Of a stretch of DNA of 64,000 bases, positions 13,736 to 58,757 are shown piece by piece; position 1 is the first letter of the stretch; each line of letters opens with the position of its first letter. The DNA comes from Polytrichum commune (Eukaryota; Streptophyta; Polytrichopsida; Polytrichales; Polytrichaceae), in the NCBI GenBank assembly GCA_950295325.1, contig OX485803.1, positions 11,656,001 through 11,720,000 on the forward strand, in the 5' to 3' direction. The position numbers and the translations under genes were made by a program. Below the pieces are notes generated by a model, which was not told where the DNA came from, did not search any database, and saw nothing but the letters and a program-made list of their open reading frames with translations.

Positions 13736-13741
13736 CCTTAT

Positions 13742-30080: not shown

Positions 30081-30211
30081 ATTTAGCGCAGCAATACGCC
30101 CCAACGGCACCCGGATCCCATTCAACCCCAACCGGGCAAGCGAGGAGAAGAACAAGTAAGTAAGGACCGGACGTCAATTACAAACTCAACAATCACACTG
30201 TAAAGAAGTGA

Positions 30212-30364: not shown

Positions 30365-30534
30365 TGTCTCTGCTGCCAAAAATTTGCAGGTTGCCTATGC
30401 ACAGCCGTACAGGTCGCCCTAGGTTGAACGTAATTACCTTACACTTGACTGTCTCTACTTCACTGAGATTTAACTGTCTCTACTCTACTTCACGGATTGA
30501 CCAATGTAATGAAATTGATTTTAGAGGCCAGCCT

Positions 30535-30780
30535 GAAGCCAAAAGGATCATGGGGCTGAAAGTACATCAAGATGGTTTCAAACTAGCTAATTTCCTAGAG
30601 CAGTGGAATGCGATAGCTTGCATTGGACAAAGACTAATGTCAACTACATGATCTGATTGAAAGTAAGACTTGAGGCTCTAAAATACTACATTCTCAAATA
30701 GCGATAGAAACTTGTCTCTAATGGGGTTATATAGGGGACACTCCAACACAAAGTGCACCTCGCTTTCAAAGCATTATGGG
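30535..30780 (-). pseudogene. LINE C-terminal fragment
   Basis: On the minus strand it reads EVHFVLECPLYNPIRDKF followed by similar diverged sequence, the His/Cys region found near the C-terminus of LINE proteins. A related fragment with YFVLECPCYNSIRDRL lies at 41770-42055 on the same strand. Both are broken by stops. Confidence 0.65.
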
Positions 30781-32729: not shown

Positions 32730-32769
32730 CTACACGCGATCCCACCCACAACGTTCCATATGTTCCTGT

Positions 32770-33470
32770 TGAGCTATGAGTCGCGTATATATTCCTGAGA
32801 GTGGCCCAGAGAGACCGTACTTACACTTCACGCCAAGATGACAATTCTCCCCCCACGCGCCACAGTTCTCCCTGTCGCTCTCGTGGACGAATTTGCATTC
32901 TCCCTTGCAGCACAAGGTACCGAACTTGCACTGCTTTCCTGAAGTACCGCAGTTGTGCTTGTTGTTGGGCTTGCACTTGTCAAAGCACCAGTAGCTGTCG
33001 TAGTCGCACTTCTTCCCACATTGCCAACAGTTGAGGCTGTCATTCTTCAAGTTGGGAGCACCTTGAGTGGCAGCACTTCTGGCCCTTTTGCCGCAGAGGA
33101 CTTCTTGGAGCCGCATTGGGGCTTGTGCACTGGGGTCTTGTGGCTGCTCACGTTCTTGAACTTGCCAGTCTTGCAGACGGTGTTCTTGGGGCAGCACTTG
33201 CCACACCTGCCGCAATTCTTGTTGTTGCTGCTCAGGTTCACGCACCAATGGTTGCAGCAACCAGGCGTCTTTCACCACCGGTGGAACTTGTCGGCCGACT
33301 AGCAGGTCTTGGAACTGCTCGTCTGCCAACAACATGCGGCTGATTGACCCGGTAGTTGCCTCGTCGTCCCCGACGGTCACTCCTGTGTCGTCACCAGCTG
33401 CCTCGCTGGGGTAAAGTTGGGCATCATTCTCCTCGACTGCCACTCCAAGGTGCCAGGGGTAACACAAAAG
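32770..33470 (-). pseudogene. Degenerate Stig1-like gene, copy 3 (in the spacer)
   Basis: The minus strand contains all the landmarks of the intact copies. The acidic region survives as VAVEENDAQLYPSEAA. The first Cys module survives as LSSNNKNCGRCGKCCPKN in another frame (33047-33241). A single shortened KTPVHKPQ linker follows. The last two modules appear as FGTLCCKGECKFVHESDREN near 32850-32920. At least two frameshifts separate these parts. The signal peptide is lost, and several cysteines are replaced (NCWQCGKKCDYDSYW, NCGAWGENC). It is far more diverged from copies 1 and 2 than they are from each other, so it is an older paralogue. It is transcribed toward the left arm, the same direction as copy 1. 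Confidence 0.85.
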
Positions 33471-33548
33471 ACCTCCCGCTCCGATCCATGGCCTCTGATT
33501 GACGCCGGTCTGATCAGAAGTGCGACTGCGAGGAGACAAGAAATTCAA

Positions 33549-34433
33549 TTCCTTGCACCTACAGGTTCCAAAGTACCAAGAGAATTATGATGATCACGAG
33601 CACTCATATGCATGACTTGGGAGATGTTTATTGAGAAACCTGTGCATGCTTAATCATCTATTCGGAATAGGTTTCACCGTTACAGATCTCAAGGTTGTAT
33701 ATTGTTACATTTCCGTCCCCATATAAGTCAACCTCTACCAGGCTGGCAATTAACGCCTTCACCGAATGTGCACACTTCAGTAGTACTATAAAAACATTCG
33801 ATTGATCAGGTGCCACACACCTGCACTTGAATGCTTTCCGATAGTTTAGTGTCCCCTATTCAAATTCCTACGTGTGATCTGACTTGCAGAGAACACACAA
33901 CTACTTTAAGGGGAGGTAGAACCCCTTGGTCAGACCACATAAAAAGTACCAAAGAATCAAGTAATTAAAACCCCGTTGAAGAAAATCCACTAAGGAAAAC
34001 CCACTAACCCATCAAGTGACAAAGTAGCCAACTACCTACATACATTGTAGTTTTCAATTCCATGTGATTTTCATTCTAACATTCCTAAACCCCACAGGTA
34101 TTTCATGTCCATGTCTGTCACATCCTCTGACATACGCTATCTATCCATTATGATTTGTCAATTTTTCGTTGTTCCTTACATAATAACAGTGTCCTAGTTA
34201 AATGTCAATCCCATGCTCCATCGGAGATAGCTCTTGACCTAGTCATAAACATGAGCCTAGTCATAAACCGTTTGTAGTGTTTGAACTCAATGAGGGGTTG
34301 TATCATGCCAAACATATCCCTAAAATCCCCATGACTTCCAACCAAAGTCCATATGAGATGGACTATGACGGGGTTAGACACTCTCATTAACCGAAAGGTT
34401 GTCCACGGGGTTGTTCAAGCCCGTCCAGGCTTG
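33549..34433. other. Palindrome spacer, right part; no gene
   Basis: No domain or element end was recognised. A short direct repeat (CCTAGTCATAAAC) lies at about 34235-34270. Confidence 0.5.
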
Positions 34434-34717
34434 TAGACCTTCCTCCGATGCTTGTGTGAGGTAGAATTTAGTTTTTGTTACTCGATTTGTTACTCGCAGT
34501 ATTATTTCTGCCATTTCTTCGAAGACTCCTTGGTCTACGTCGACTGGGGATGGTCCAGAGAAGTCAAATAGGTAAGCTGCATCCAATCACTTCTTTACAG
34601 TGCGATTGTTGAGTTTGTAATTGACGTCCGGTCCTTACTTACTTGTTCTTCTCCTCGCTTGCCCGGTTTGGGGTGAATGGGATCTGGGTGCCGTTGGGGC
34701 GTATTGCTGCGCTAAAT

Positions 34718-35044
34718 ATGATATTCAGTGTCATGTGGTATTTTATGTCGCTATGGTAACTTTTGCGGATGAGACTTCTTATGAATGAGTGAACAAATAT
34801 TATCGTGGATGATGGATGAGCTATAGTCATGAAACTTGTGATGAAATATAGTCATGAATGATTGAAATTTGGATGAAAAATCACTTGGTATTTAACTGTA
34901 ATTGCAACACTGTAAAATCTCTAATCCCCCAAAAATTACAAGGAATGACAAATAAGGTTGGATTATCATTTAGTGTTGGCGACACTATGCGGTTTAGAAT
35001 TAGTATCGAGCAAGACAATTAGAATTGGTGACACTAAATATCAT
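34718..35044. mobile_element. MITE in right palindrome arm (mirror copy)
   Basis: The ends ATGATATTCAGTGTCA (one mismatch) and TGACACTAAATATCAT mirror the left-arm MITE. It is about 29 bp shorter, mainly because a short segment near 29940-29975 of the left copy is missing or replaced here. Confidence 0.72.
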
Positions 35045-35151
35045 GTGTAGTGTACTTATTCGATGGAATCACTCGCTATTTGAACGAAGAAGATACACTA
35101 CCGATCATGGAAATACTAATCTTGGTCGAAGTTGCGGAAGTCTGATTCTTC

Positions 35152-35220
35152 TTCTTTTTTTTGAGACAGAAGGCCAACCGCCAACGCCAAGATCAAAAGG
35201 AACCAAAAAGGAAAACGCGC
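35152..35220 (-). mobile_element. 69-bp 5'-truncated LINE insertion with 13-bp TSD
   Basis: AGTCTGATTCTTC occurs at 35139-35151 and again at 35221-35233, flanking a 69-bp insert whose minus strand ends GGTTGGCCTTCTGTCTCAAA plus A-rich tail. The left arm has a single AGTCTGATTCTTC equivalent and no insert, so the empty site is visible within this window. The insert resembles the last ~50 bp of the LINE at 12.6 kb. Confidence 0.92.
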
Positions 35221-35412
35221 AGTCTGATTCTTCAGCACACGAAAGCAGGTACCGACCTTGACGGACAGCAAGAATTCGGCATTGTACACGAGGTAAATCT
35301 GCCGCCGGAGGGTAGGTGAGTTTTGCAAAGAAAGGCCGAGGGTCAGGCCTTACAGCGATTCCCAAAGGCCAGATTTAGGCCCGGTTTGGTAATCTGGCCT
35401 TTGATATCAATT

Positions 35413-35457
35413 GGCCCGGTTGGCCTTCTGTCTCAAAAAAAACAAAAAAAAACAAAT
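35413..35457 (+). mobile_element. Second tiny LINE-tail insertion in the right arm
   Basis: GGTTGGCCTTCTGTCTCAAA plus A-rich tail interrupts a sequence continuous in the left arm (ATCAATT|GTCACAGG). A short AATT-type duplication may flank it. The adjacent 35380-35400 also differs between arms, so the exact 5' limit is uncertain. Confidence 0.7.
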
Positions 35458-35603
35458 TGTCACAGGCGGGGGATTATAAGGACGCTGCCTATAGCTGCCT
35501 GCGCGGAATGACTAGGCGCCAATGCACGAAGGGAGGCTAAATTAATAATGACGTAGGGTAGAGCCTCCATCTTTCAAGCGAAATCTGATGACCCAGGTCC
35601 GGC

Positions 35604-35611
35604 CATATAAT
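35604..35611 (+). promoter_or_regulatory. Candidate TATA box, Stig1-like copy 2
   Basis: CATATAAT lies 134 bp upstream of the ATG at 35745, the same spacing as in copy 1. Confidence 0.5.
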
Positions 35612-35744
35612 CCCTCCCGACTGCGCAAACTTTAGAACTCGGTATCGTAGGCGCCCAGGTAGGCCTACCCAGCCATATGCAGTAGCGGCTGAGAGACTGA
35701 GACTCCTTGCAGCGTTCATCAGTCCAGACACCTCGTCGGACACT

Positions 35745-36524
35745 ATGGCGAAATCTGGTGTGTTGGTGCTGGCATTGTTGAGTGCCCTGCTCTTCTTGCA
35801 GGTTGCATTGGCAGTCGAGGAGACAGTACCTGTGGCATTTGCTGACGAGAGATCGGAATCGCTCTACGCAAGCGAGGCAGCTGCGGAGGAGACGGAGGTT
35901 GCAGATGTCCCCGACGTTACTGGAGATGAGACTACGATCGGCTCCGCTCGCATGTTGACGGAGACGAAGAGCAGCTCCAAGACCTGCAAGTCGGCCAGCA
36001 AGTGCCACCGGTGGTTCAAGAATGGCGGTTGCTGCAACCATTGGTGCGTGAACCTGAGCAGCAACAACAAGCACTGCGGCAGGTGTGGCAAGTGCTGCCC
36101 CAAGAACAGCGTCTGCAAGAGCGGCAAGTGCAAGAAAGTGAAGAGCCACAAGCCCCCTGTGCACAAGCCTCCAGTACACAAGCCCCCAGTGCACAAGCCC
36201 CAATGCGGGTCCAAGAAGTCCTGCGGCAAGGGGGGGCAGACGTGCTGCCACGGAAGGTGCTCCGACTTGAAGAACGACAGCCACAACTGCGGGCAATGCG
36301 GAAAGAAGTGCGGCAGTGGCAGCTTCTGCTGCAAGGGCAAGTGCAGGAGCAGCACCAACCAGAACTGCGGTAAGTGGGGAAAGAGGTGCCACTTCGGATC
36401 CGTGTGTTGCAAGGGAGAATGCAAGTTTGTCCACAAGAGCGACAGGGAGAACTGCGGAGCTTGCGGGAAGAAATGTCCTAAGGGCGTGAAGTGCAACATG
36501 GGCATGTGCGGATACGGCCACTAG
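35745..36524 (+). CDS. Stig1-like secreted cysteine-rich protein, copy 2
   Basis: Encodes the same 259 residues as copy 1, with no amino-acid difference: an N-terminal signal peptide, an acidic stretch, a first Cys module (81-130), a KPPVH-repeat linker, and two further Cys modules with NCGxCGKKC cores. By family it should act outside the cell, in the apoplast or wall. The start is the first ATG after the conserved TATA-like box and is preceded by CGTCGGACACT. The coding and 3' flanking sequence matches copy 1 exactly where compared, while the 5' flank differs by many substitutions and two LINE insertions. The two copies may therefore be expressed differently. Long open frames on the opposite strand overlap the gene but are composition artefacts. 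Confidence 0.88.
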   Translation: MAKSGVLVLALLSALLFLQVALAVEETVPVAFADERSESLYASEAAAEETEVADVPDVTGDETTIGSARMLTETKSSSKTCKSASKCHRWFKNGGCCNHWCVNLSSNNKHCGRCGKCCPKNSVCKSGKCKKVKSHKPPVHKPPVHKPPVHKPQCGSKKSCGKGGQTCCHGRCSDLKNDSHNCGQCGKKCGSGSFCCKGKCRSSTNQNCGKWGKRCHFGSVCCKGECKFVHKSDRENCGACGKKCPKGVKCNMGMCGYGH

Positions 36525-36866
36525 ATGGACTATACGTCTGAAGCCAAAACTGTTTCACTGTGTCTAAGATTGGGTGATTTATTCTCTGGGAATTGCGTGC
36601 AACGGAATGTGGTGCCGACCGCAGCAGGATCGAGGTCGAGTGAATTTCGAAGCTCACGCATTATCGAGGCGCTCGCGTGTATGGTATGTAATCAAGATTG
36701 AATTATGGTTAGGACGTTGATAGTGTGCAACAATGCACCTGGCGACTGTGAATTGAATATGCAGAGTCTGAACACTCCTTGTGAGGTCAACTCAGTGCTC
36801 GGACTGTTCGGAATAATCATTCTTTGGTGCAATGGTGATTTATAAGTGCATCACCCTTGTTCCTTC

Positions 36867-36872
36867 AATAAA
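36867..36872 (+). terminator. Candidate poly(A) signal of Stig1-like copy 2
   Basis: AATAAA about 345 bp beyond the stop, mirrored in copy 1. Confidence 0.5.
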
Positions 36873-37234
36873 GCGAAAGCCTTTCCTGGTTGTCTCTGGG
36901 CCTGGCTTATCTTCGTCAGCAATCGCTTGGCTCACAGAAATAGATTCGGTCTGTTCTGTCGAAATATGATGTCTGAGAGCTCGATGAGTGCACGATAACA
37001 TATTTGTACCACTTGAGTAACGTGGTGGTGTTGTAAGATGCGACGTAGTTTGGTTTGATGCATGACATGGTCGGAGTGAAGATAACAAATGTTGTAACGG
37101 CTGAGAAGGAGAGATGATTCCACTGCTGTTCTCGTTTAAGAACGTTATTGCTCCCTCCCGCTTGACTTCAGCTTAGCCTAAAAGTTGGTTCCGAAAACAC
37201 GGACTTCAGACCATGGACGCTGACGCTATCTAGC

Positions 37235-37404
37235 TATGTAGTGACGGGCCTACTTTGCAAACGAGGGTGCATGGTTTAAAAATGGAGGTCTTAATCCTGG
37301 AGCACTGACTCTGCCATCCTATGTAGTCATGAGCCTTGTTTGCAAAGGAGGGAGCATGGTTTAAAGATGGAGGTTTTAATCCTGGAGCTCCGACCCTGCC
37401 ATCC
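37235..37404 (+). repeat. 85-bp tandem duplication private to the right arm
   Basis: Two units begin TATGTAGTGACGGGCC and TATGTAGTCATGAGCC, and both end in CTGCCATCC. The left arm has a single unit. The two units differ at about ten or more positions, so the extra unit may be older than the arm duplication and lost on the left. Confidence 0.75.
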
Positions 37405-37462: not shown

Positions 37463-40386
37463 AAGGCTGTTCTGAGGGGTAGCCTTTGACGAATGATTTG
37501 AATGCCTATTTAGCATTTGCATGCACATTATGTAAGTACTGGGTAGTTCAATAATTCACCTTTTGGATGAACTTAGCGGTCACCTCTTTTCCTTTTGCTC
37601 ACTACGCCAACAACATTTGGTGATAACAATAGATTTGGGATAATGAGCATGAAAGGTTAATTCTCATCACTGCACTCTCTCCTTGAGAATATTGGGACCT
37701 ATACTGACTTCTCATAGCTTCACTCGTGAGAAGGTGGCAGACCCGAAATAAGTTCATAAAGTTGGGCCGGATTAGAGCTTAATGCAGGTGAATTGGGCCG
37801 GTGCTTTGGCCGTCCCCAACCCGTGTGTGAAGTGTGTGAAATGTAGGATTCTGCCCACCCTACATTACAGTGAGGGGTATTAGTGATGAAAAATCTTATT
37901 AGTAACATAACATTACTTAGGACCCACTGTATGTTCAGTGGGCTCTCGTAATATAACATTCGGATGTTCACAGTGGGTGCCCAGTAATGTTATAGAACCG
38001 GCGTTCTTACCTGCGATGTTTTAGTGCCGAACCTACATGGCACGTGACCTGTCTCACTTATTACTGTGGTATAAATCCACATAATGCGGGGCCTGATATT
38101 TACTGACCAGCTTTTGCGTAGGTAATAGTCCGCAAATTTCTAGTGATCTTATTGGCCCACCGTCGCTGCTAGCCAGTTTTAGCTAATGTTGCCATTTCAA
38201 GGCCCCGTTAAATCACAACGTGACTCCCCTAACATCCTGCAAATGTCTCCGGCCACCGACCTCCCTGCTTTGCGGTGGGGTCCTCGTTGAGTTTGTGACG
38301 TCTTCGGTGGCTCCGCTAGAAATCAAGCCTGTTCATAACTCTTCCAGGTAATTTTTGTCATATTAGAAAATGTCTGCAATGTAGACACTTCTTTTCATGA
38401 TGCATTAAGTAGGATCTCATCAGGTCGTACGTCACACACGATCTGCCTTTTGTTGGAGCCTTCGTTCAGAAATTGAAGTCTTCCGCACTTCAAGTTGGGC
38501 GTCTCTGGATTCATCATTAGGTGCTCCAAATGCTCCAGACACAAAAGAACATGAGTGCAAGTGGTGGCGTTAAGAATTGCTTTCTCACATAGTTGCTGTG
38601 TAGCGAAATCCTGTGGGTGAGTGGAACTGTGGAGAATTTTGACCTCTTGACGTTTTTGAGATTTGGTTGTAAGTATAGTGCAAGCTTAGCATAAAAAAAT
38701 TGGTAACGAAAGAAAGTTGAGTTTAAGCGTTCGATGTGTACAAGCATTGGTTCTTGTGAACTTCGTTGTGTAGCGAAATCTAGTTAACGACAAGTGAGGG
38801 TGAGAACTTTCGATGTCTACCTAATAGTTCAAGCTATATCTAAAACTGTGGAACCACCATCGTGTCAACCGCACCTACCGTGTAGGTGCTGGATTTTGAG
38901 CAAGAAAAGCTGTCAAGGAAAATTGGAGGAAACTTTCAAGGCCTCCCCAATACCAGTTTTGGAGTTCATTCTGATTCGTATTGCCTTGATGGGAGCAGAG
39001 CAGATGTAAGATTCCCGTAAGGTTTCTGGTCCGCCTGCTGCGTGAGATTCAAGTCTCCTGATATTCAGCACCACCAGGACAGGACATAAATTTATATCAC
39101 CCATTCAGCTCATTCATTACAGAAATATCACCAGTAGTGTAAGCAATTCATTTTTACCAGGTTGCGCTGCAACGGTTTTCCAAATTGTGGATCCTCGTGT
39201 ATTGTTCTTCTTGTAATCATTCTCATCTTCTCCTCAGAACCTGCAACACAGGCCTCATTTATCCACTGCATCCTCAAGAACTTCACCACAACCTTCAGGA
39301 AGTGAGTATCAGTCACAATTTATATAAGTTGTGCAATTTGTGTGCTTATTAACTCCCGATGCTACGGCTTCAAAGCATGTCGTAATTTGTCAGTGGCTTT
39401 CATGTATTAGTGTACACACGAGCAGGCATATGGAAGGCTCCAAGAGCATAAAAAGGATAGAAATGAACAGGAGATTAAGCAGAATAAAGCTTGACAGAGA
39501 GTGAATTCACGATGTGAGCATGTAAACTTTTGATTGTTCGGGAGCATTTGGTGGTATTTGTGGCACAAGCAGGCATCGATCTCTGAAGGTTGATGATATG
39601 GAATTCTCAGCCAAGCTCACACCGCCGTCATCTTCAACTCCCCTTCAACTGCGCTCGAGTTGCTGAGCTATGGGGAGTCCAGTGTCCTTGTCTCCACCCA
39701 ATTCAGACCCAACATTTCTAAAATGCCTCCTAAAAGTTGCAAGCCTCATCACCAGGCTATTCCATGCACTTCAAAACCATGAGTCACAAAACGGGTCGAG
39801 TCCCACGGATCGATATGGCCCGATAGCTAGTTTGCAATGTTGACAGTTCCCACATGGGCAATGATCTATGTAGGCAAAACTGGCACGGAGATTAAGACCG
39901 TGGAAATGAGGTTCACATTCATAATTTGGGCTTTGACAGAATTGGAAGGGCAAGACTGTTGCCAAGCGCACAGGGGGCGATAGCGGCTTCCACAAAAAAC
40001 TTATCCAAAGTACTAGCGGAATCTTATGGATCCACGTTTCTACTTTCAAATGGCTTCAGAGTAGAAAAAGGAACGGTGAAATCCTTGGGCTATATGTTTG
40101 TGTGCAGCTCCCATGTGTGTGCATCTCTCACGGCATCAGCAGCATCTACGACTACAGTGACGAACTTTATCCCCGCCACGGCGATATCCCACCGGCCGTA
40201 TCAGGCCGGGGATTCGTGGCACTCAAGTAAAATCATCCGGTAACAAAAATTGGATGAATCCATCAAGAAGCTTGGATGGAGCTTACTTTAGTGAAACACC
40301 TATGAGTTGGCACGTAAGACCCCCTTGTTCTCTCATAGCTATTATGAACTACTAGCTATTTTGTAAATATCAATTAGTTAGCAAAG
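37463..40386. other. No recognisable gene
   Basis: Composition is more balanced than in the AT-rich neighbours, with short open segments (38794-39009, 39926-40243), none with a known domain. Near 40199-40243 a ~40-bp segment with GGCCGGGGATTCGTGGCACT is shared, inverted, with 51712-51757. Confidence 0.4.
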
Positions 40387-40545
40387 GGCCATGATGTGGC
40401 TTTGGATGCTCTAAGCCTAATTTCTAACCCCTCATGAGTTGTCACCAAGGCCATGATGTGGCTTTGGATGCTCTAATCCTATTTTCTATAACCCCTCATG
40501 AGTTGTCACCAAGGCCATGATGTGGCTTGGATTCCACGTGGTTAT
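40387..40545. repeat. ~64-bp tandem repeat, about 2.4 copies
   Basis: The unit GGCCATGATGTGGCTTTGGA ... CCCCTCATGAGTTGTCACCAA is present twice with a partial third copy. The copies are nearly identical, so this is recent. Confidence 0.9.
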
Positions 40546-41769
40546 ATTGATAAATATTGCAAGTTGTCAATGTGTGCAATATTTGGTAAGTGGTTATGAC
40601 GTGTTGTCATAGTCATTTTTTTAATTTCTTTCACAACTCTTTTATTTTGCACGGGTGTAATTGCTTACACATTTGCAAAATTCAAAACTAAGACATATCA
40701 TTTTATGATAAATTGGTTAACTATAAAAATCAGTTCAAAATAATAACTATTGTCATTTCTCTATTATCTAAGTATATATATGTTGAGATAAATATAATAT
40801 AATTTATTTGAAGAGATATAATATACATCATATTATTTTAGAGATAATATCATATGTGATGATGATAAAGCATTACAGTACATCGGATAGACTATAATCA
40901 GAACTTAGGATTTTCTGAGTATACCCCATCTATAATGTTATCCCACAAGTCTAATTCCAATTAAAATAATATTTATTTGCACATTATATTATATTATCTT
41001 AAAGATCATATTTATCTTTATATATATCATTTTTTGGGATATATTATATACTTTATCTTCATCATTTCACTTTGGTCGTTTTATGAACATTACACTCATT
41101 TATGATTTTTGTATTTTATACCTTATCTTAATTTTATTACAAAAATCATCATCTCAACTCCTTTTAGTTATAATAGATCATGCAATATATTTTTGGATGT
41201 CTTTAGATACCTTATCTTGTAATTTGTATCTTTATGATTAATTTTATATATTGTGTAACTTATTTTTTAAAATATTTTGCGACCACCACAAATAGATTAA
41301 TAATAAATATATTACAAATTGACCCACAATAATCATATTTTGTTAATTTTTATATGATTTTTTATTCATTTATTATATATTCCCTATCTTACAACCCATC
41401 AAACATATCCAATTAAAATTTACTTAAATAATATAGTACAAGGTTATTTATTTCTAGACTATAGTTTATCTTGAGCAATTGATGAGCACAAGAATTTGCA
41501 CCTGTAATCATGAATATTATATTTGTGTGTGCTTCAAACTTTACGAAGAAAGTCGTTATAGGCTTGATTTGGATTTGCTAGCAACCTTGAACTGGTCGCG
41601 TGTTTTATACCATAGGAGAGGTGGGCTAGCAGAAAAATTAAACAATTAAGACCAATGTACATTAGTGCCAGTAATAGATCAAGTTGCAATAGGTACCCTA
41701 CAAACTAATCATCCCAAGAGTATTTTTTGTTTATATAAATAACCTTTGTGAAAATGAAATGATGTTGTT

Positions 41770-42055
41770 TTTAAAATCCAAGAAGCGAATGGCTTATGGC
41801 ATTAGGTGTACATCAAGATGGTGTCAAAAAAACTAATTTCCTAGAGTAATAAAGTGTAGCGGCATTTGTTAGATCTAATAATGTATCATGGAAGAGGCAC
41901 CATGTTGTATCAATTCAATGGTCTGATTGGAATTGACACTTGAGACAACTTAGTCTAACATTATGAAATAGGAAAATTAATCTATCTCTAATGGAGTTGT
42001 AGCAGGGACACTCCAACACAAAATATGTTTCATTGTCAACTGCATTTGGGAGACA
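41770..42055 (-). pseudogene. LINE C-terminal fragment, second copy
   Basis: On the minus strand YFVLECPCYNSIRDRL matches the fragment at 30535-30780, and the flanking nucleotides align in order (CATCAAGATGGT, AATTTCCTAGAG, GGGACACTCCAACACAAA). It is broken by stops. Confidence 0.65.
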
Positions 42056-42224
42056 TAATTAACATATTCATGTTGTAACCTTAGAAATTGTAATAGAGAA
42101 CAATATTATCAAGCATCGTTCACATCAACAATTCACATTCACAAAATATCACAATTTATGAACGAGATGATTATGATGATGACAACACACAAAAACCTCT
42201 AAAGTATATGTGTCTAATTCTAAC

Positions 42225-42550
42225 ATGACAATAATTTGGACACCTATATTTGAGTGGTATGTGGTTGGGCATGGATGAAAAAATTAACTCCAAAAATACT
42301 TGTCTTTAAAAAGGATCGTGACTATGTGCTTTAATAAATAATGTTATCATTTCTTGTGTCAATACTCAACAAATTGGTGGGGAGGATGACTATATTTGAC
42401 CATTTAAGGAGAACAATAATCTTCACTTTGAAGTTGAACAAGATATTCATATGAGCTCCAAAGAATCACGAGAAGATAGACTTCAACCTCGATTTAGATT
42501 TGCTAACCATCTCGTACTAATTATGTGTTTCATATCCTAAAATACACATG
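42225..42550 (+). repeat. Dispersed repeat R2, copy B
   Basis: Moderately diverged match to 25245-25560 in the same orientation. A homopolymer of C (42911-42922) lies some 350 bp downstream. Confidence 0.6.
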
Positions 42551-43139
42551 CTTGTTGGAAAACCAAGCCATCTACGTTAGGGCCGTTTCACATATGGTCC
42601 CAAGTCCCATTCATATTAGCAAACCCCAACACGGATGCAAACTCCCAACTTGTGAGCCTTAAGTGTTGTCTTAAATATGGTTGAATATCATTGTAGTCAA
42701 ATCTTGATTATTTCATGTAAATATATTCACGGGATTTGGATGGAGAGTTGGGTCTAGTTTTTGGCTTGACCCAACTCGCAACACAAGTCCCAAGCCGTAC
42801 GTTGGTGTGAAGCCCAACGTTTCTGATCTCTTCCTCCAAGTGTAATTGAAGAGTGTTATGAGTCCTTACCTTTCGATTAACTTGTGTAAGGGCTGGAGTT
42901 CGGCTACTCCCCCCCCCCCCCGAATAATTCTTCTTTTGATTGCTCAATCTCATGTTTTAGTGTATGAAAACTTATTTATGTGAAGAAGATTTCTTGGAGG
43001 AAGCCGACCCTCACGTTGTTGACAAGCGTGTAGCAATCACACCGTGGTTGTTGGGCGGAGAAGAGTGGTAGTCTAGGAAAATATGGAATGAACCTACCAG
43101 ACATGAAGCATTAATGTGGATCGAATTGGATTTAATCTT

Positions 43140-44000
43140 ACCACGAGAATCAGAGCAATTCTTGTTTGAGAGATTCTAATCAGGATTAATTCTCCCGTGA
43201 GTAAGTAGATATTCTAAAAATCATTCGCCATGGCCATCATCTCTCGAGAATGTGAAGAGGCAGAGGAGGTGGAGCGTCGAAGTGAGAAAGGTGAGTCATG
43301 GAGAGGACGAGGCGAGTGCACCTTATCCCATATCGTTTGGGGGAAGGCTCAAGGGCAAGCATATAAGGAGGAGTGGCTAGCACCTCATTCGAGAACATGA
43401 CATTGACTTGGAACTGGTTATTTGGTTACTTCTTACTAAGACTATGGCCCACTCTGGTAAGAGAGGTTACTTGAGACTATGGCTGGACATTGAGACTATG
43501 GTCATGCCTAACTAGACTATGGTCCTAGGGAGTAGACTCTACGCTTAGGCCAGTTCGCTTAGCTCGGTTCCCGTTACTTGTAACTAGACTTTTGCAAGTT
43601 GTAATAATTAATTTTAATACACTCAATTCAATTTGATGGCGTTAAGTCTAAAAGGACTAAAGAAGCAATTCATGTTTGTGATATTGAGTTTAATTCATTA
43701 ATCTATTTGCATAAAGGTAAGAGTGTCATGTGTGTTTGACCTATCTCCTAACCTGTGGTATGGCCTATGGTCCCTGGATATTTAATTGAAGAGACTATGG
43801 ATCCAACCAAGGTGCCTTGACCTTGGAGTTTGTTGTCCTAAATTCACCTTAATTCCCTTGTGATCTATCAATTAACTTCATGGTGATCTCTAGATGTAAC
43901 ACATAACCCTGTGCGGTTTTCTTAATTGGAACCCAATCTAAAATCCTATCTACACATCTCATGTGACTTTGGGACTTAGGACTTGGAACCTGTCCGAACC
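43140..44000 (+). other. Possible LTR-retrotransposon leader remnant
   Basis: GAATCAGAGCAATTCTTG at 43146-43163 is close to the TATCAGAGC word of the initiator-Met tRNA primer-binding site used by many plant Copia elements. Downstream sequence has a TATAAGGAGGAG segment (43356) and repeated GACTATGG words (43440-43530). No gag or pol and no LTR pair were identified, so this is tentative. Confidence 0.25.
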
Positions 44001-45141
44001 GGCCCTTAGATAGAAAATAGTTTTCCAAACAAGGAGGAAAAACAACAATTAAACTTTAAACAACTACATGATATTTAATTATATAATGATATACTAATGT
44101 TCAACTTTAAGCATTATATTATAATTATTATCATTTTAGAACCTTACTAATTTGGGATTTATGTTTTTTTCCAACGTATAACCTTAATGTTTTTTATGGT
44201 CTAGGGTTTAGGTTTGGATTTAAGTTGGGTCAAACTTAAAATTTGAAGGACCTACATGACCATTTGATGAACCACCATATTGGACTAACAATAGATACAT
44301 GATTTGCGAACATTACATTTCATAAAACAATATTATATTCTAAAGTTATTTATTGTGGATTCCCTATCTTATAACTCATTATGTATATCCGATCAAAACT
44401 TAGATAAATGATCTAGTAGAAGATGATATAACTTGGCAAGATAGTCTATCTTGTGATAGTTTATTTTGTGTTCATTATCATGTATATCTTATATCATATA
44501 TATAATATTTATGAATTTCTATTAAAAATTATATATTTATATATTAAACATTAAACATTTTCATTAATTTACGATGATATTGTATTATTTAAAGGTTTTA
44601 TCATAGGTTTGTAGAATGATAAACATGGTACGTTTAAGTCCGTATAATTAATATCATGTGATGTCATCTCATAATATAATTTATATGCATGGTGCATAGA
44701 TATAAGATCTAGGGTTCAAAGTAATGAAGATTATATTTCTACATTTCATTTGCCAATCGTTTTCTCATTCATCCAATATGTCCACTATATAAACTTCATT
44801 TTAGGGATTTCAAGGTGTTTTTCTCTTGTACCACTTCCAAGGTATGTTTTCTCTCTATATTTTGCTTTTGTATTGGGATATGATGTCATTGCATAAGGTA
44901 TATTTATAAAAAAAATTAGTCACATCGATATTGGATTTAAAGACTATTTGTATTTTGTTAAAGATAAATTGCATATAAGCTAAATATTTAATATATATTC
45001 AGTATATATATAAATCTTTTATCTATTTGAAGTTATTTTTGTTAAGTTTGAATATGGATAACTCATTAGATAAGGTATTGTAATTTATAGAATCTTTGGA
45101 TAACATGTGTGATTTGTTCAGGATAGGTTATCGTCGAAATT

Positions 45142-47244
45142 ATGGCTAACTCTATGGTCATCCAATCGCCCTATGTGGGAACTTTCAACCACCGCCATTT
45201 GCAATGGGCAAAATCTATTCGCGGAATGCGACCTTGTAGGATAGCTCGCATTCTATTAGATCGTTTAGATGATTTCCAAAAATGAGAAAAAATTGGTGAA
45301 GGAGGCATGGAAATTTTTTGGACAATTCACAAGATTCGGAAGGTTCCTCCACACCTCCAAAAGCAAGTTCGATCCACAACAAGTCTTGGACACATCACGT
45401 AAGATACCTAACTTGGATATGTATTTGGATATGGTATAGTCAGATATATGTATTTTTTTATAATATTGCTATATATTAACATTTATATATGTTATTTCAG
45501 ATATCATTGTTCATATGGCCCTGAAGACTATAGAAACAAGAAGGAGTTGAGACAAAATCATAAACGAGGATGTCTTGCACGATATTCTATCAAAATTTTG
45601 GCTAAACCCGCGGATACGGTAGAGATAGCCTATTTCCATGAAGAACATATCCGAATTGATGGAACATCGACGCATGGCGTGTACGATCCGGATTCGTCGG
45701 CACGTCCTTCCGCTCTTGCTACACGATGGTCGGATTCATTGAAGACGTATATTGACAATAGGTTGAAGAGTGGCCTTAATGGTCGTCAAATTTATGATGA
45801 GCATCATCAAGTGTTTGCAGATCGATCACGGATGGGTTATTCAATACGTAAAGATGATACTCTTCTTTTGAAGATCCGAAACATTGAGCGTACATTTTTA
45901 CGATGTAAGTGGAAACGACACACTAACGAGGCAAAAACGTTGATTCGTGAATTACGGAAAATAAAGATGATGTGTTTATTTTGCAAGAGTCAAATTATAT
46001 AGATGGCAAAAATACGGCATTTGTGTTGGGTTTGCAATCACCCGAACAATTCAATGTCATAATAGAGTATGGTGACAAATCCGCTATATCTATGGATGCT
46101 ACATTTGAAACTAGCGCTTGCAATTATTTTCTCTATACACTTATGGTGTTCGATGCTTGTGGCAATGGGTTTCCCGGTGCATGAATTATAACAAATAAGC
46201 AAGATTCCGAGAGTCTCATTGTCTTTTTAAAGCCTTTGGCGGATAAATTACGAGCGGCGCATTCGGAATGGTGTCCTAATGTTTTCATTGTTGATAATGA
46301 TGAAGCTGAACACAACGCTTTGAGGTGGGTGTATCATATTCTTTTACTTTCATATCAATATACTCTATCCCAATTTACTAATTTATTTTTTTACAACTTA
46401 CATAATCAAAATCAAATTCAATTTTATTTTTGTCTGAAAATATAGTCTATCCGAATATGTTATCCAAGCATTTTTTTTACATATAGTCTATCCTCATTTT
46501 GTTATCCTTATATGTTTATTCATTTATTTTGCGTGTAGACGCGTATTTGGAGAGGACGTTCCCATATATTTGTGTCAATGGCATATTTTGGAGTGTTGGA
46601 AAACAAATGCTTTGGCGAAAATGAGATTGGACGAGGAATCTCGGGATTGGATTTATTACGGCTTGCGGAACGTGATGTATATAGACATTATATGGAAAGA
46701 AACCAAAAATGATTTCATTGAGCGAGCAAAGGCAAATGCAAATTTTGTATTTGATACGGCAAAAGACTGTCGGAGAGCTCGGATTGTATCAACGATAGAT
46801 GTTCGCGGAACACAACAAATAACTTACTAATTGGAAAGAGACCTCTTCAAGGCGGAGAGAGGATTTTGTGACGAAGATGGATTGGATGAAGATATCATCA
46901 TTGATTCAACCGACACGAATCACGATACAACACCTAATCTAGATGATTTGGAAATTGGGGTGGAATCTTTACAAAAGAATGACGTGATTGAAGTGGATGA
47001 AGATGTTCTTCATGCAAGAGTTATAAAAGAGCACGCAAAGGATTATAAGAAATTTCAAAGATTGATTGAAGGGCACGGACTACGAATGGCCGAGCATGCT
47101 ACTTCCGAATTTCGTGTGTTGTTGAATCGAATGTCGGAGTTGTGTCTCGCGGATTTCCAAGGTACTCTTTATCCGGACACTCAATTCGCGAATATGGATA
47201 GGGGTATGGGTAATTCAATTCGTAGAAAAACAAGGGTGGTATGA
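45142..47244 (+). pseudogene. MULE-type transposase gene, three exons, broken
   Basis: Exon 1 runs 45142-45398 (GT at 45399), exon 2 runs 45501-46324 after ATTTCAG, and exon 3 starts at 46539 after GCGTGTAG. The reading frame is kept across both junctions (HIT|YHCSYG and NALR|RVFGEDVP). The transposase core shows SMDATFETSACNYFLYTLMV with the first Asp at 46095, then FDACGNGFPGA, the second acidic box FIVDNDEAEHNA, and LCQWHILECWK at about 46571-46600. This follows MULE (Mutator-like) DDE transposases, including the C-x-WH box. Breaks are TGA at 45283 and 46182, a 1-nt frameshift near 45965, and TAA at 46828. After that the frame continues to 47244 with an acidic linker and no obvious SWIM zinc finger. 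The gene faces the second gene at 48320-49658. The copy is dead as read. Confidence 0.82.
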
Positions 47245-47445
47245 AAGAATGTTTTCGAAAATACCTCGTTCATGTAACCCTTAGTGAAAATAATTAGTTT
47301 TATATTTATAATATTTATGATTATTATGACAATCGTATATATGATTTTGATGTTTATTACAATTGGTGAAGATATTTGGCATCATATATAATAAAATTTT
47401 ATATTGATTTTATTTTGTTAGTTTTCATATGTTCATCACTGTTTT

Positions 47446-48253
47446 TGTATACAATACCTTATCCCTCCTCTTATCTTTAAAATGTTAAATGATGATAATT
47501 ATGGATAGACTATCTTAGTTTTGTATATTAGAGATAATATGTAAAATAAAAGGATAAGGTATACTCAGGAAATGAATAGTTTCTGACTATATTCTATCTT
47601 ATAAACTTCAATTATATGATATTTGTGATCGATACCTTATCTATATACTTATCTTCAAAAAAAAATTATCATAAATATGGATAAGGTATCGTTATGTGAC
47701 ATTTTGAAGATAATATAAAAATCAATGATAAGATATATTCAAAAATTGAATAGTTACTGACTATATCCTATCTCACAAACTAAAACTATATGATATTTGT
47801 GATCGATACCTTATCCATATACTTATCTTCAAAAGTGCAAAATGATCATAATTATGGATAAGGTATCGTTATGTTACATTTTAAAGATAATATGAAAAAC
47901 AATGATAGAGTATTCTCAGAAATTGAATGGTTACTGACTATAACCTATCTTAGAAACCTCAACCATATGATATTTATAACATAACGATACCTCATCCATA
48001 TACTTATCTTCAAAAATGCAAAATGATCATAATTATGGATAAGGTATCGTTATGTTACATTTTAAAGATAATATGAAAAACAAGGATAGGGTATACTTAG
48101 AAATTGAATAGTTGCTGACTATACCCTATCTTAGAAACTTCAACCATACGATATTTGTTATCGATACCTTATCCATATGTTTATCTTCAGAAATGCAAAA
48201 TGATAATAATGATGGATAAGGTATTCTTATGTTATATTTTATAAATTATATGG
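47446..48253. repeat. ~178-bp tandem array with inverted GATAAGGTA motifs
   Basis: Between the convergent 3' ends of the two genes lie about 4.5 units starting near 47450, 47628, 47801, 47985 and 48161. Each unit carries TACCTTATCC and, about 45-50 bp later, its reverse complement GGATAAGGTA, followed by a GAAATTGAATAGTTACTGAC-like segment and CCCTATCTTA. Units 3 and 4 are the most alike. The motif pairs make each unit a potential cruciform or a dimer-binding site. Confidence 0.9.
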
Positions 48254-48319
48254 AAAACAATTTAAAAAAATTATTTATATTATAAAACAATACATATATG
48301 CTCGAAAATACCACAAATC

Positions 48320-49658
48320 CTAGTTTCCTGATGTTACTTCTTCTTCTTCTTCTTTGTCGTCCACCGAGTTAACTTCGTCACTATTTTCGGGACTTGGCGC
48401 TCTCCAGTCAATGTCATCGTCGCTTGCTCGGGATTGCGTTTCACGAGCCAATGCCGCGGCCCGTTCCGCTTTGAGGGCGCGAATGCTCGAAGAAGATGCG
48501 CAAAGATGGGCTCTTAATTTAACATAATGCTCAAGAAATGCCTCAAAATTTCCAAAAAACTCCATTTTTTATGGACATGCGCTACGGTGTTATATTCCGC
48601 GAGCTCACAAAAAGTGAGTTCACGAATGTTTGCGGATTCCTTCAATTCATATCGTTCCCGGGAAAACGCGGGTGCAAGCGTAGACATGTATGGCAATCTT
48701 GATCTCACAATCCGGTTCCGAATGGATTTGCTTCGCTTGAAGGCCGTCCATGTGGTAGGATAAAAAAGAGCATTACCCCACATGGCAAAGTAAAAATTAG
48801 TTTTGACTGACCGGATGAAAAACATGGCGAGGGGGGGCAATTCATCTGGCAACGGATTCTCAGCTGCATCTCGAAGCATATTCTCCCATTGTCGTTCGGC
48901 AGCGATGGCCCATCTAGATTTGGCCTTCGCGTCTTGACGTTTTACCCGGGCAACCGGATTGGATAAAGCCCGATGATTATTCATGCAATTCTCCTCCACC
49001 ATGGTTGAACGCGTCCTCGTGGGCCCCGACATTCGTGGTCTTCCTCCTTTACCACCTCCTTCAACATTAAGAAAACAATTATCATTAATTAAATGTTTTT
49101 TTAGTTTTTGTTTACTTACATAATTTCTTTTGCATTCCACCCAAAAACAATGAAACTTCTTCCGAACGCCTTCTCCTCGAATAGCCCAATGTACATCCAA
49201 TTGAGCAACCCCGTCGATAGGGAGCTCACTTTCCCGTAGATGCGGTAAACCTTTGGAAACTTCATCTTCATCCATTGGGATGTAATTTGTTTGTTCTTCA
49301 TCATCCATTGCATTATTCTCTTCCGTTGCCTCAAGAAGAGATGATGGTGAAGCCAATCCCAAATGGATGGGTGGAACATCTACAAAAATCAAATAAGATA
49401 AGGTATTGTTAGTTTTCAATTTCATGGATTATTACAAACAATTAACGGGATAGGGTATTGTAAAAGAAAAAATGCAAAAAAAACCATCTTTGCTACTCAA
49501 AGAGTAGCAAAGATGGTTAAAACATTACCTTGTGAATGGGTTACAATGGTACATTCCGAAAGGGCAATGTCCACTATTGTTGGGGGAAGCGGTTCAATGT
49601 TAAGAGCCATCCGAATTTCTGTGGTTAGTGGAGTGACAATAGTTGGAATATTTGCCAT
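48320..49658 (-). CDS. Unrecognised second gene of the MULE-like element (spliced)
   Basis: Exon 1 is 49529-49658 (MANIPTIVTPLTTEIRMALN ...) with donor GTAATG. The intron is 49380-49528 and exon 2 resumes DVPPIHLGLA at 49379. The frame runs to about 48566, where one base seems missing in a run of six A. It then continues as MEFFGNFEAFLEHYVKL to a stop at 48320, giving about 396 residues in total. Visible features are an acidic N-terminal region, a C-X4-C-X12-H-X5-C finger-like pattern (HCFWVECKRNYVSKQKLKKH), a GGKGGRPRM segment like an AT-hook, a basic central region, a coiled-coil-like Ala/Arg stretch (IRALKAERAAALARETQS) and an acidic tail. These suggest a nuclear DNA-binding protein. It converges on the transposase as mudrB does on mudrA in maize MuDR, but I see no similarity to a named family. 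A host gene lying next to the element is the main alternative. Confidence 0.62.
49482..49518. repeat. Perfect 17-bp hairpin with 3-nt loop in intron 1 of the second gene
   Basis: AACCATCTTTGCTACTC, AAA, then the exact reverse complement. It lies 10 bp inside the donor site (minus strand), so a transcript would form it next to the 5' splice site. Confidence 0.9.
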
Positions 49659-49744
49659 AATTCTGTACCAAAATCCCCAAAAAATCACATCGAGTCAATA
49701 AATGAATAAACTAACCGCTAGTGAGCCCAACATTTGTTGTTGCT

Positions 49745-49945
49745 TGTTGTAAACTGTATTTTATCAAATGACTTTTCATCCAAATTTCAGTCATCCATAA
49801 CACTATTTCATCACAAGTTATGAGAAGATATGATTTCATCCATCATCCATGATAACATTTGTTTACTTATTCATAAAGTGATATCATCCAAAATATTGCT
49901 ATAGTAACATAAATACCATGACACTAAATATCATACTTAGTTGAT
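49745..49945. mobile_element. Fragment of the palindrome-arm MITE family
   Basis: Follows the right half of the MITE at 29725-30080 in order (CATCCAAATTTCAGTCATCC, CATCCATCATCC) and ends with TGACACTAAATATCAT. The left half is missing. Confidence 0.75.
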
Positions 49946-49948
49946 ATT

Positions 49949-51000
<1,052 letters not shown>

Positions 51001-52833
51001 GATAGATAGCATGAGAAATTACTACATCCATTTAGCACTACAACAATTCCAAGGCCAAGGTCTAATACATTGAGCACCTAGTCTAAGCAAATGCACAACA
51101 TTATATATACAAGAAGAAAAATGATTTCATAGATCAAAATACAAGTTGCAAGATTTCAAAAAAGTTGAGTGCTAACATTTTCTCCCTACATTTCAACTTT
51201 GCAATTGCTAAGCTATGATACACTAAACAATACATTGCCAAAATGAATGCAAGGTGAGTGATGTGAGAGAGAATGTGAGAGTATGACAAAAGTGAGTGTA
51301 AGAGAAATAATGAAGAGGGGGGAGAAGAACCCGGGAGGTTGGGGGAAGAGCCGCTCACACAAAGATGAGAGGATGAGGGGGCAAGGAGCCTTAAATGGCT
51401 TAATAAAATGACATGCTAATCTCTTAAAAATAACCGCATGAGTAGTGATGGGTTGGCAACCCATGATGCACCCACTTGCTCTTAAAAATATCCCAACTAA
51501 TAGTGATGGGTTGCCAACCCATGATTCATCCACTTGCTCTACACTAGGCACTCAATTTTAGGTGCACAAAACTTTGTATTTATCAACACCCTTTTAATTA
51601 GGTTGAGATGGTTTTAGACACAAAAGTTTAGTCACCTTGAGACAAGGAGCTGACACCATAAGGGTCATTCTAAAGTGGTTGATCTCATTCAATAAGATGA
51701 ATGAGCTTCTACGGATGATTTTACTTGAGTGCCACGAATCCCCGGCCGCCGTATCACACATTTTACACCATACACTACACTGAATATTGTATACAGTGTC
51801 ATATGGGCTTTTATGTCCTGTAATGTAATGTTAGAGCAAGACTAGTGGTTCCCGGATCTGCATCTGCATCCAGAACAAAAAGTCGCTTCCGGCCTGGATG
51901 TGGATGCAGATGCAGGGCACCAGTTCCCTCGCTGCCTGCATTTAGGCTAAATTCATACATGATGCCATTATTTACTGAAATAGTACACTGATTTTTATTT
52001 AGTTCATGGTAAATAAGTTAGTTTCAAATCAAATCAATTAATTTCATGATTGATTATTTAGTTTATTTTTAACTATATTATTTAATTTTTCTAATTAATT
52101 ATTTATATTTATATTTACTGATTTACTAATATCATTTATTGCTTCCTTCCATAATTTGTGAGTTAATATCATAATTACATAGTAGATTTTACAATTAGAT
52201 AATCATAGATGTAAAAATTAAAAATATAAAAAGTTGATAAATTTTATAATTAGATGATTTGACAATAGCATTAATAAGATAATTCATGCTGAAGTTGATA
52301 AATGATAATCAATTGTCTCTCTACAAATAAATAAATGATCATATCCTTATATATAAATGCTCATAAAATCTTATATTTTTTACAAATAATATATACAATT
52401 GTTAAAAATGCGAACAACAAACTTAATTAACATTTGCTTATCATTTGTCATGAATGCGTGTTTGATATCATAGGGGAAGTGGGTTACATAGACAATGTTT
52501 TTTGAAAACCCCCACTTTACTAAGACCCAATGGCTATAATTATGCTCACTTACTAAGTGATTTTTTATGTAGATTTTAAATACGTATTTTCATCATTGAC
52601 TACGATAAAAAAAATTACGTGATTCTAAAAACAAATTAGTGCATTTTATTTGGGCCATTATGAATGTCGGCTATGATAGGCTGCCTCATTTACGTGTCTC
52701 TACTTTTCATTTGAATGTAAGAAATGCAAGCACTTTATAATCCGACATTAAATGATGATTAATACCTTTTAATATGAAACTAAATATAACATATTAATAA
52801 TGTACAAATTCTTAGCATACTAGTCTAATCACC
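51001..52833. other. No gene; short tandem duplication (51420-51540) and MITE fragment (51770-51835)
   Basis: A ~66-bp unit with ATGGGTTGSCAACCCATGAT (itself palindromic) is repeated at 51420-51540. At about 51770-51835 CACTACACTGAATATTG ... CAGTGTCATATGG matches an end of the palindrome-arm MITE. The rest is AT-rich. Confidence 0.5.
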
Positions 52834-57477: not shown

Positions 57478-58757
57478 TTATAGTGTGGCACCCACAGTTT
57501 CTGCCCTTTCCAAAAATTTGCATACCTGCTCCACAACGTCCCTACCTCGTGCACTGTTCTGCTGAAACTTCTCCACACACTTCTGCTCAATTTTCCCAGC
57601 CATGGATTTGAGAGCTGGCATTGTTGCACACGTAATGTTGGTCTCTTGTCTAAATAATGTCCACTCAGGATTTTCCGGGTGTGGCAAATAAGAGCATTTT
57701 TCCTCCACTTCCACAAAGTCTTTCAAAGTCACATTGCGGGTTACCATCTCCATAGTGCGCTTGCCTGAAGTTTCCAACAAACCATTCACATATGCAAGTA
57801 TCATAAGCAAGCATACCAAATGACTGTGTCTGCAAATCTTGAATACATATTTGATTTACAATAAGCATCGTCCAAAATCAACGAAGGGTCCAGAAGTCAC
57901 AATCTTAACATCAAGCTAGCAGTTTTACATCATACATTGTTCTCCCCCAACACCTGCATTTGATGCATTTTTAGATTTAGAACAATTATTTGGGTTCAGT
58001 GCCTGGTGGCAACAAGTTTAACAAGCCCATAAAGTACTGAGAAATCTGAGTGCAACTAGAGTCAAAAGACACCATCACCTGTACAGGTGGTCAGTTCTGT
58101 TTCAACTTACAAGCAGCTTTCTAAGTATCTACTTTCTACACTTCATTGCGTCAGACGGGGTGGGGAAAAGAAGCTCCTACCGTTGACTATAACCTCTGCG
58201 GTTTGTCTACTGATTTAAGGAGAAAAAAAAACACTATTGTGTCATTTCTTACAGTGGAAATCAGAACTTCGTGAAAAGATAGCAAGTTGAGATTACATGA
58301 ATACAAATACCAATTTCTTGGCCAAATGAAACAATGAAGAACTGCAATATATTAGAGCCTCCAGACAGCATACACACACAAAACTAGGAAATATAAGGTA
58401 GGTGCCAAATGGTGCTTGGTATATACACTTCATGTCATGCTCTCATAGGATAGCAAAGGGCTGTTTGAAGGTTTTGTATTCCTCACCTGCATCAACAGTG
58501 GATTTCTCCAGACAGTGGCACACTGTCTCTCCCATGAGCCGTTGGAGCCACCAGGGGCCAGGGGCATTTACAGTAATGGCTCGAGTAGTGTGTAGCTGAC
58601 CAGCCTCTTTGTCTAAGGTTCTATCAACAATGTCAACCTCTAGAACATGCGAAAGGAGCATCTTGTGTTCCTTGTCCGAGTATTTTCTCCAATTTGCTGC
58701 AGTTACTCGCTCCCATGGATGCCTGTAGATATGTTCTTGCACATATCCTCTCACCAT
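57478..58757 (-). CDS. PRELI/MSF1 domain protein (mitochondrial lipid-transfer family), two coding exons
   Basis: Exon 1 is 58487-58757, starting MVRGYVQEHIYRHPWERVTA and ending STVDAG before donor GTGAGG. Exon 2 is 57478-57764, after acceptor ACTTCAG. The phase joins cleanly at a Gly codon and the product is 185 residues. Family landmarks in order are HPWERVT (13-19), LSHVLEVDIVDR, LHTTRAITVNAPGPWWLQR, the exon-2 start KRTMEMVTRNVTLKDFVEVE, then YLPHPENPEWTLFRQETNIT and the C-terminal helix KIEQKCVEKFQQNSARGRDV. The length and the end of the domain near the C-terminus fit plant MSF1-like proteins. Relatives (yeast Ups1-3, animal PRELI/SLMO) carry phospholipids across the mitochondrial intermembrane space. 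No stop or frameshift is seen. It is the clearest housekeeping gene in the window. The intron is 722 bp, and further 5' UTR exons may lie upstream. Confidence 0.93.

Follow-up and report, generated by a model that had tools for sequence, protein, structure and literature searches.

Does the second gene of a plant Mutator-like element (MULE) serve the element that carries it, and by what means could it do so? The question is raised by a stretch of 64,000 bp from Polytrichum commune (assembly GCA_950295325.1, contig OX485803.1, positions 11,656,001 to 11,720,000; hereafter the window). An initial annotation of this window had placed at 40700-49700 a two-gene MULE-like element, in which a transposase gene and a spliced gene for an acidic, zinc-finger-like, AT-hook-like protein (hereafter the partner) converge on a motif array. 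What lies here is one degenerate member of a MULE family with two genes. Elements of this family end in terminal inverted repeats (TIRs), generate target site duplications (TSDs) and carry a second gene on which selection acts. The partner is a genuine and diverging accessory gene belonging to a MULE clade. It is tentatively proposed to bind a short word repeated in the noncoding DNA of the element.

A complete insertion with two broken genes

The window contains one complete MULE insertion of 11,544 bp (Table 1). All parts named in the initial annotation were found (transposase, convergent spliced partner, motif array), and the two genes converge on the array, as had been described; its period is 177 bp. 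The extent given at that time lies inside the element and is too small. The limits are set by perfect 36-bp TIRs flanked by a 9-bp direct repeat, GCCGTATCA; of the 34 inverted repeats of the whole window (maximal exact, at least 20 nt), this TIR pair alone has such a flanking repeat. The 9-bp duplication and the MULE transposase together identify the element as Mutator-like. The TSD, exact over its 9 bp, is within the 8-11 bp that characterise MULEs. The terminal repeats and duplications, which had been left to be identified by the alignment of copies, recur elsewhere in the genome. Both TIRs were found in six of the nine extended copies: three have exact 9-bp TSDs (copies of 11,883, 12,702 and 9,883 bp), one has a TSD matching at 8 of 9 bases (11,916 bp) and two have none (9,768 and 5,450 bp).

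Table 1. Features of the MULE insertion and of its genes. Positions are those of the window, except in the last row.
Feature	Position	Strand	Details
MULE insertion	40204..51747	+	TIR plus TSD
Left TSD, 9 bp	40195..40203	.	same bases as 51748-51756
Right TSD, 9 bp	51748..51756	.	same bases as 40195-40203
Left TIR, 36 bp	40204..40239	+	perfect
Right TIR, 36 bp	51712..51747	-	perfect
Left noncoding cluster	40886..41470	.	GATARRSTAT at 40886, 41048, 41118, 41207, 41461
Motif copy upstream of transposase ATG	45069..45078	+	
Transposase exon 1	45142..45398	+	in-frame TGA at 45283
Transposase exon 2	45501..46324	+	MULE domain start; frameshift near 45945, TGA at 46182
Transposase exon 3	46539..47244	+	TAA at 46828; about 0.7 kb including SWIM-type finger gone at about 46845
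Array between both 3′ ends	47454..48261	.	177 bp x 4.6; up to 4 motif sites per unit, orientation -,+,+,-
Partner exon 2	48320..49379	-	tblastn of P0001; frameshift near 48568
Acidic tail coding region	48323..48436	-	other frame
AT-hook-like core	49030..49047	-	GGRPRM
C2H2-like finger	49078..49155	-	C-x4-C-x12-H-x4-[H>N in window copy]
Partner intron	49380..49528	-	motif copies at 49397 and 49449
Partner exon 1	49529..49658	-	starts MANIPT; GT..AG splice sites
Partner P0027 in locus L041	4636-5298		positions in L041

Both genes are broken in the window copy. The transposase gene (three exons, GT..AG introns) is dead: it has three stops, one frameshift and a gap of about 0.7 kb in exon 3. It codes for a MULE transposase with an RNase-H-like domain. 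After splicing, and with X in place of the stops and of the frameshift, its translation matches the MULE domain PF10551 at E=3.8e-13; relatives match at 2.2e-9 (P0012), 3.2e-13 (L040) and 9.4e-8 (L041). The stretch absent from exon 3 encodes a SWIM-type finger and is kept in 9 of the 20 fetched copies (L010, L014, L015, L016, L018, L019, L020, L026, L028). Among the seven longer copies of the near lineage that were translated, the finger CxCx8CxH is readable in two (L015, L026), contains a stop in one (L028) and is degraded in four. It is also present in the transposases of L040 and L041. PF04434 is below its cut-off (L026: E=0.0032; further scans: 0.011 and 0.11). The SWIM-type zinc finger characteristic of MULEs is therefore found in longer copies and is missing from the window copy through the exon-3 gap. 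No intact transposase exon 2 was found among the 10 copies examined (longest open stretch: 185 amino acids). Longer open relatives are present in public data (P0001, P0010).

The partner gene and its protein

The intact partner homologue, P0001, has 369 amino acids and 19 member sequences. Its isoelectric point (pI) is 4.1 in the N-terminus, 10.3-10.4 in the basic middle and 4.1 in the tail; the middle carries C-x4-C-x12-H-x4-H and GGRPRM. The finger and the hook had been rightly described; the acidity that had been noted is marked at both ends, but slight for the entire protein (pI 6.4, on P0001). The window copy matches P0001 (tblastn, exon 2) at 90% over amino acids 1-298 and at 92% over amino acids 287-369, the latter in a different frame. 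Besides this frameshift, its second zinc-ligand His is replaced by Asn. A match to exon 1 was obtained in 18 of the 20 fetched copies (a partial one in a single case), and NNTLSYL, read from the intron and compatible with AATACCTTATC, is seen again in P0001, P0003 and P0025. The four zinc ligands are all retained in six of the seven homologues covering the finger. Finger and hook form the best-kept segment between P0001 and P0002 (53/58 versus 130/173, p=0.008).

No partner match above the Pfam cut-off was obtained (C2H2: sub-threshold only), and no convincing match was found among solved structures (best E 0.12). DUF1985 and DUF287, the domains of the VANC proteins, gave no match at E<=1 in the window open reading frame, P0001, P0002, P0004, P0019, P0020, P0023 or P0026, nor in P0027, P0028, the L044 partner and the pieces of L042 and L045; the initial annotation had already judged the partner to be unlike VANC. 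Public protein searches with the partner returned 9 and 19 entries, all at least 66% identical. These searches require shared 5-residue words, and one scored the best 7995 candidates only, so remote kin may have been missed. No loci were found in IMG/VR for P0001, P0010 or the TIR, and no match to alignment A2 in GTDB contigs.

The partner intron also contains a perfect 17-bp hairpin (AACCATCTTTGCTACTC/GAGTAGCAAAGATGGTT, 49482-49518). Among 13 diverged copies, its 9-mer CAAAGATGG is found again in 11 and AACCATCTT in 12, and for this reason the hairpin may be functional.

Linkage of the two genes and selection on the partner

The genome searched is the one to which the window belongs (assembly of 407.8 Mb); match counts are lower bounds. 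Partner exon 2 gave at least 26 matches, corresponding to at least 25 near loci (split matches merged by hand, 26 to 25), and transposase exon 2 gave at least 29. With 30 divergent loci in addition (see below), the second gene is not the single-copy host gene that it might have been. Nor is it unlinked in other copies: a transposase exon-2 match lies within 15 kb of 13 of the 25 near partner loci and is convergent in 13/13. Any transposase exon was found in 15 of the 20 fetched copies, each time convergent. Near and divergent linked pairs taken together are convergent in 30/30 cases, for a chance expectation of linkage of 0.28/30 (contig C5 taken as 50 Mb; orientation ignored).

The ratio of nonsynonymous to synonymous substitution rates (dN/dS) between subfamilies is 0.29 for the partner, with 60/60 pairs under 1 and values of 0.85 and 1.12 in the wrong frames. 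For the transposase it is 0.26, with 24/24 pairs under 1 and values of 1.06 and 1.41 in the wrong frames. The pairs share copies and hence are not independent. Copies with at least 85% of the exon covered were used; counting the window, there were 17 such copies of the partner and 10 of the transposase. Pairs with fewer than 100 codons or with dS <=0.01 were excluded. The pairwise divergences of the two genes are correlated (Mantel r 0.91, 13 copies with enough of both; 0/2000 permutations). Purifying selection and co-divergence indicate that selection has maintained the partner along with the transposase. They also support the accessory factor that had been proposed.

Three copies (L016, L024, L025) are 95-98% identical to the window at the left end, falling to 77-81% at the partner gene. 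This drop looks like an exchange of left ends between subfamilies.

The word GATARRGTAT

The word GATARRGTAT is found 19 times in the element, in no case within the exons (2,970 bp in this count), and the 52 kb of the window outside the element have no copy. In 200 dinucleotide shuffles of the element, its mean is 0.2 and its maximum 2. The sites are distributed as follows: 12 in the array, 3 in the left flank, 1 before the transposase ATG, 1 in transposase intron 2 (46360) and 2 in the partner intron. The leftmost site is 0.8 kb inside the element (0.7 kb for GATARRSTAT), and the rightmost one is 2.3 kb away from the other end. Because of these distances, the sites do not form a subterminal binding array.

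All of the 20 fetched loci hold at least one GATARRGTAT site (L017: one; L027: two). In pooled counts, GATAAGGTA ranks first among the 9-mers with at least three G/C in each of the two subfamilies, with 80 occurrences in 5 copies and 63 in 13. The array was compared in 14 of the 20 fetched copies (omitted: L013, L017, L027, C2 40.37, C7 19.04, C3 50.18), and in 14/14 comparisons conservation is higher at motif positions than at the remaining ones. In nine diverged copies, conservation is 0.82-0.96 at motif positions versus 0.66-0.76 elsewhere in the array. When the motif mask was shifted, between 0 and 191 of the 807 shifts reached the observed value; no more than 27 did so in seven of the nine diverged copies.

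A second, AT-rich array is located near the right end (50130-51008). Its unit is based on TAATCTGTAA, found 15 times in the element and not in the remaining window.

Divergent lineages: related partners, other words

A protein search of the genome with P0010 gave at least 142 matches, some of which have long open frames and an identity of only about 40%. Four loci (L040-L043) were picked by their transposase alone, and a convergent partner-like gene was found in three: P0028 in L040, P0027 in L041 and broken kin of P0027 in L042. No partner-like frame was found in L043 (5.5 kb, sole member read of the class below 35% identity). The alignment of P0027 with P0028 spans 215 columns (E 9e-14). Alignment A3 matches P0027 at E 4.5e-5 (hhalign) and P0028 weakly (E 0.023). 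The partner of L044 matches P0001 at 2e-8, P0027 at 8e-9 and P0028 at 1e-9. The homology of the P0028 lineage is deduced from the P0027 alignment and from these L044 matches. A genome-wide search with P0027 also reaches the lineage of the window (E 9.5e-5, 7.7e-4). The partner protein thus has a single C2H2-like finger and a GRPR/GRPK hook, to which acidic ends are added in the lineage of the window. Among the positions that are invariant across five aligned partners (18-75% identical to P0001) are two Trp, the Cys, Cys and His of the finger and the G.P of the hook.

The divergent partner matches (42, split ones merged by hand and two near-lineage partners excluded) correspond to 30 loci. A related transposase is found within 15 kb of 17 of them, always convergent: 16 pairs at a distance of 2.5-3.4 kb, one at 11.5 kb. 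Transposase loci (132: 142 matches, second fragments removed, 3 exon-2 loci added) were sorted according to identity to P0010. A partner was found at 12/22 loci with at least 55% identity, 17/29 with 35-55% and 1/81 below 35%. The partner seems to mark one MULE clade, a grouping made without a tree and in which very diverged partners could escape detection. Many of the 81 related transposases below 35% identity have open frames, mostly without a detected partner.

GATARRGTAT is absent from L040, L041 and L042, where other words are repeated. In L040, GATGGGTATTG is found 10 times: two copies upstream of the transposase and eight in or beside a 94-bp array between the genes. For GATGGGTAT in L040, block shuffles give a mean of 0.09 and a maximum of 1; it is found four times in L045 and twice in L046, which are kin of L040. 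The genes of L044 are separated by an array of 61 bp x 3, which contains CTGCAATACCTGCCG. TATACGTGA is found four times in each of L041 and L042 (shuffle maxima: 2 and 1) and once in L040. GGTAT[TC]G is common to three of the four words and may be a conserved half-site, which is suggestive only. Concerning the ends of L040, L041 and L042, no exact 10-mer inverted pair with a TSD of at least 8 bp was found in the short flanks. L040 and L041 have long open transposase and partner frames; these divergent relatives may include recently active copies.

Comparison with known elements

In the Arabidopsis VANDALs, silencing is relieved by a protein of the transposon itself, VANC, by means of words specific to the family; VANDALs carry motif arrays in their noncoding DNA, and the extra protein is less conserved (PMC5735166, PMC10398659). 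The element of the window resembles them: it is a MULE; its extra gene is less conserved than the transposase; its short family-specific words are noncoding, tandemly repeated and different among related families. It differs from them by the partner, which lacks DUF1985/DUF287 and has a C2H2-like finger and a hook, and by its perfect 36-bp TIRs, whereas those of VANDALs are described as degenerate or lacking. On both grounds, it is not a member of the VANDAL/VANC group.

The layout is that of MuDR of maize: two opposed genes (transposase and second gene), TIRs and a 9-bp TSD. The TIRs of only 36 bp, the size of 11.5 kb and the motif array between the genes are unlike MuDR. Type II Abermu elements of grasses have an opposed second gene, ORFR, located between the transposase and the 3′ TIR; like the window element, they are large and have a 9-bp TSD, and their second gene is less conserved than the transposase with a nonsynonymous to synonymous ratio (Ka/Ks) below 1 (PMC9168764). 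Their TIRs are longer (Hvu_Abermu: 138-145 bp), and in the available parts of this paper neither a motif array nor an ORFR finger is reported (PMC9168764). Mutyl of Yarrowia has a second MULE gene, mutB, with a DNA-binding role (PMC6446971); unlike in Mutyl as described there, the second gene of the window element converges with the transposase. By analogy, the closest functional precedent is VANC (PMC5735166, PMC10398659) and the closest architectural ones are MuDR and Abermu type II (PMC6446971, PMC9168764), as far as the available parts of these sources show. No description of the present family was found in the literature searched, subscription papers and Repbase being outside this search; among literature matches to GATAAGGTAT, no transposon paper was recognised by title.

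Possible roles of the partner

The preferred explanation, held tentatively and at slightly less than even confidence, is that the partner binds the word of its element, coats the noncoding DNA and keeps the element expressed. Binding would involve the finger and the hook. The bound partner would coat the noncoding regions of the element, and the coating would counteract silencing or activate transcription, so that the element would stay expressed. The transposase thus produced would then act on the 36-bp ends. Words specific to a lineage would confine the effect of the partner to its own family, in the manner of VANC in the VANDALs of Arabidopsis, here through an unrelated protein. Partner-word binding is suggested by noncoding DNA loaded with a word that differs between lineages and by the VANC precedent; the anti-silencing role is proposed by analogy.

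A broader proposal is possible, though doubtful: a second, independently evolved, sequence-specific anti-silencing system, based on a C2H2/hook family unrelated to VANC, in which protein and word co-evolve. The candidate words, each read by the partner of its own lineage, would be GATAAGGTAT, GATGGGTATTG, GCAGGTATTGCAG and TATACGTGA. If this is true, co-evolution of protein and word is a repeated strategy among plant transposons. A single genome would then offer four candidate protein/word pairs for the comparison of specificities. The second genes of MuDR and Abermu would also gain a concrete hypothesis, namely to look for words.

Several observations weigh against the preferred explanation. 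Concerning the word, it is outside the top six 9-mers in 5 of 13 diverged copies taken singly (L017, L021, L026, L027, C7 19.04). Some array comparisons are unremarkable versus shifts (191, 141 and 115 of 807). Within the window array, the motif excess is weak (0.885 versus 0.80; 11/182 shifts reach the value). Motif conservation could come in part from the choice of the reference and from array homogenisation. In L041 and L042, the array is 5′ of the partner, not between the genes. Concerning the protein, the best C2H2 match in Pfam (E 0.001-0.009) is below every cut-off, and there is none for P0027 and P0028. A specificity of 10 bp is seldom achieved by one finger. The AlphaFold2 model of P0001 (alignment A3, 9 sequences) is useless (mean predicted local distance difference test, pLDDT: 33.8). 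Concerning the gene, dN/dS within the near subfamily is uninformative (0.59 in frame versus 0.35 in one wrong frame). Five of the 20 fetched copies (L011, L017, L022, L023, L027) lack any transposase exon, and no matched transposase lies within 15 kb of 12/25 near and 13/30 divergent partner loci.

In another reading, the array would be bound by the transposase or by a host factor, or would merely be an expanding repeat, the partner acting elsewhere. This is rather unlikely. Tandem arrays do expand by themselves, the motif is also present within the transposase intron (46360), and contact between partner and motif is hypothetical. The word is nevertheless present in 20/20 fetched loci, its positions are better kept in 14/14 comparisons, and other words stand beside diverged partners; the 7 copies outside the array (shuffle maximum: 2) are not explained by a self-expanding repeat.

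The partner could also be a MURB-like helper of transposition (strand transfer, insertion or synapsis) with no role in chromatin, the array being a side issue. The opposed genes are arranged as mudrA/mudrB, finger and hook are DNA-binding-like, and insertion in maize is reported to need MURB in the available parts of PMC9168764 and PMC6446971. The motif is away from the termini (first GATARRSTAT 0.7 kb from the left, last GATARRGTAT 2.3 kb from the right), and binding there would not assemble the ends. A helper of this kind is unlikely.

The same DNA-binding anatomy, with acidic ends that could recruit activators or repressors, would suit a self-repressor that limits copy number through the array between the 3′ ends, and the copy number is modest (at least 25 near loci). 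Nothing here sets repression apart from activation. The host usually silences plant transposable elements anyway, and such a self-repressor is improbable. Finally, although host genes are captured by MULEs (PMC6446971, PMC9168764, available parts) and public searches gave close relatives only (at least 66% identity, shared 5-residue words being needed), a captured host gene fragment carried as a passive passenger (Pack-MULE) is hardly credible, given purifying selection like that on the transposase (dN/dS 0.29 between subfamilies), a homologous gene linked in the same orientation to transposases of divergent lineages only about 40% identical, and the motif of the element within the partner intron.

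Other features of the window

A large inverted repeat extends from 27565 to 37318; each of its arms measures about 2.8 kb, and their identity is 93-96%. One arm contains a Stig1-domain frame (28362-29327, minus strand, E 3.7e-23), mirrored by a near-identical frame at 35592-36521 (plus strand); a third Stig1-like frame is found at 32733-33584 (minus strand). Remains like those of a Ty3/gypsy-type retrotransposon are found at 4606-8364; the aspartyl-protease match is weak (E 0.0046), and the assignment was otherwise judged from the frames. A 257-bp unit at 13740-13996 ends in perfect 28-bp inverted repeats and is flanked by a direct repeat of 4 bp. Pieces of a host PRELI-domain gene are located at 57481-58778 (minus strand).

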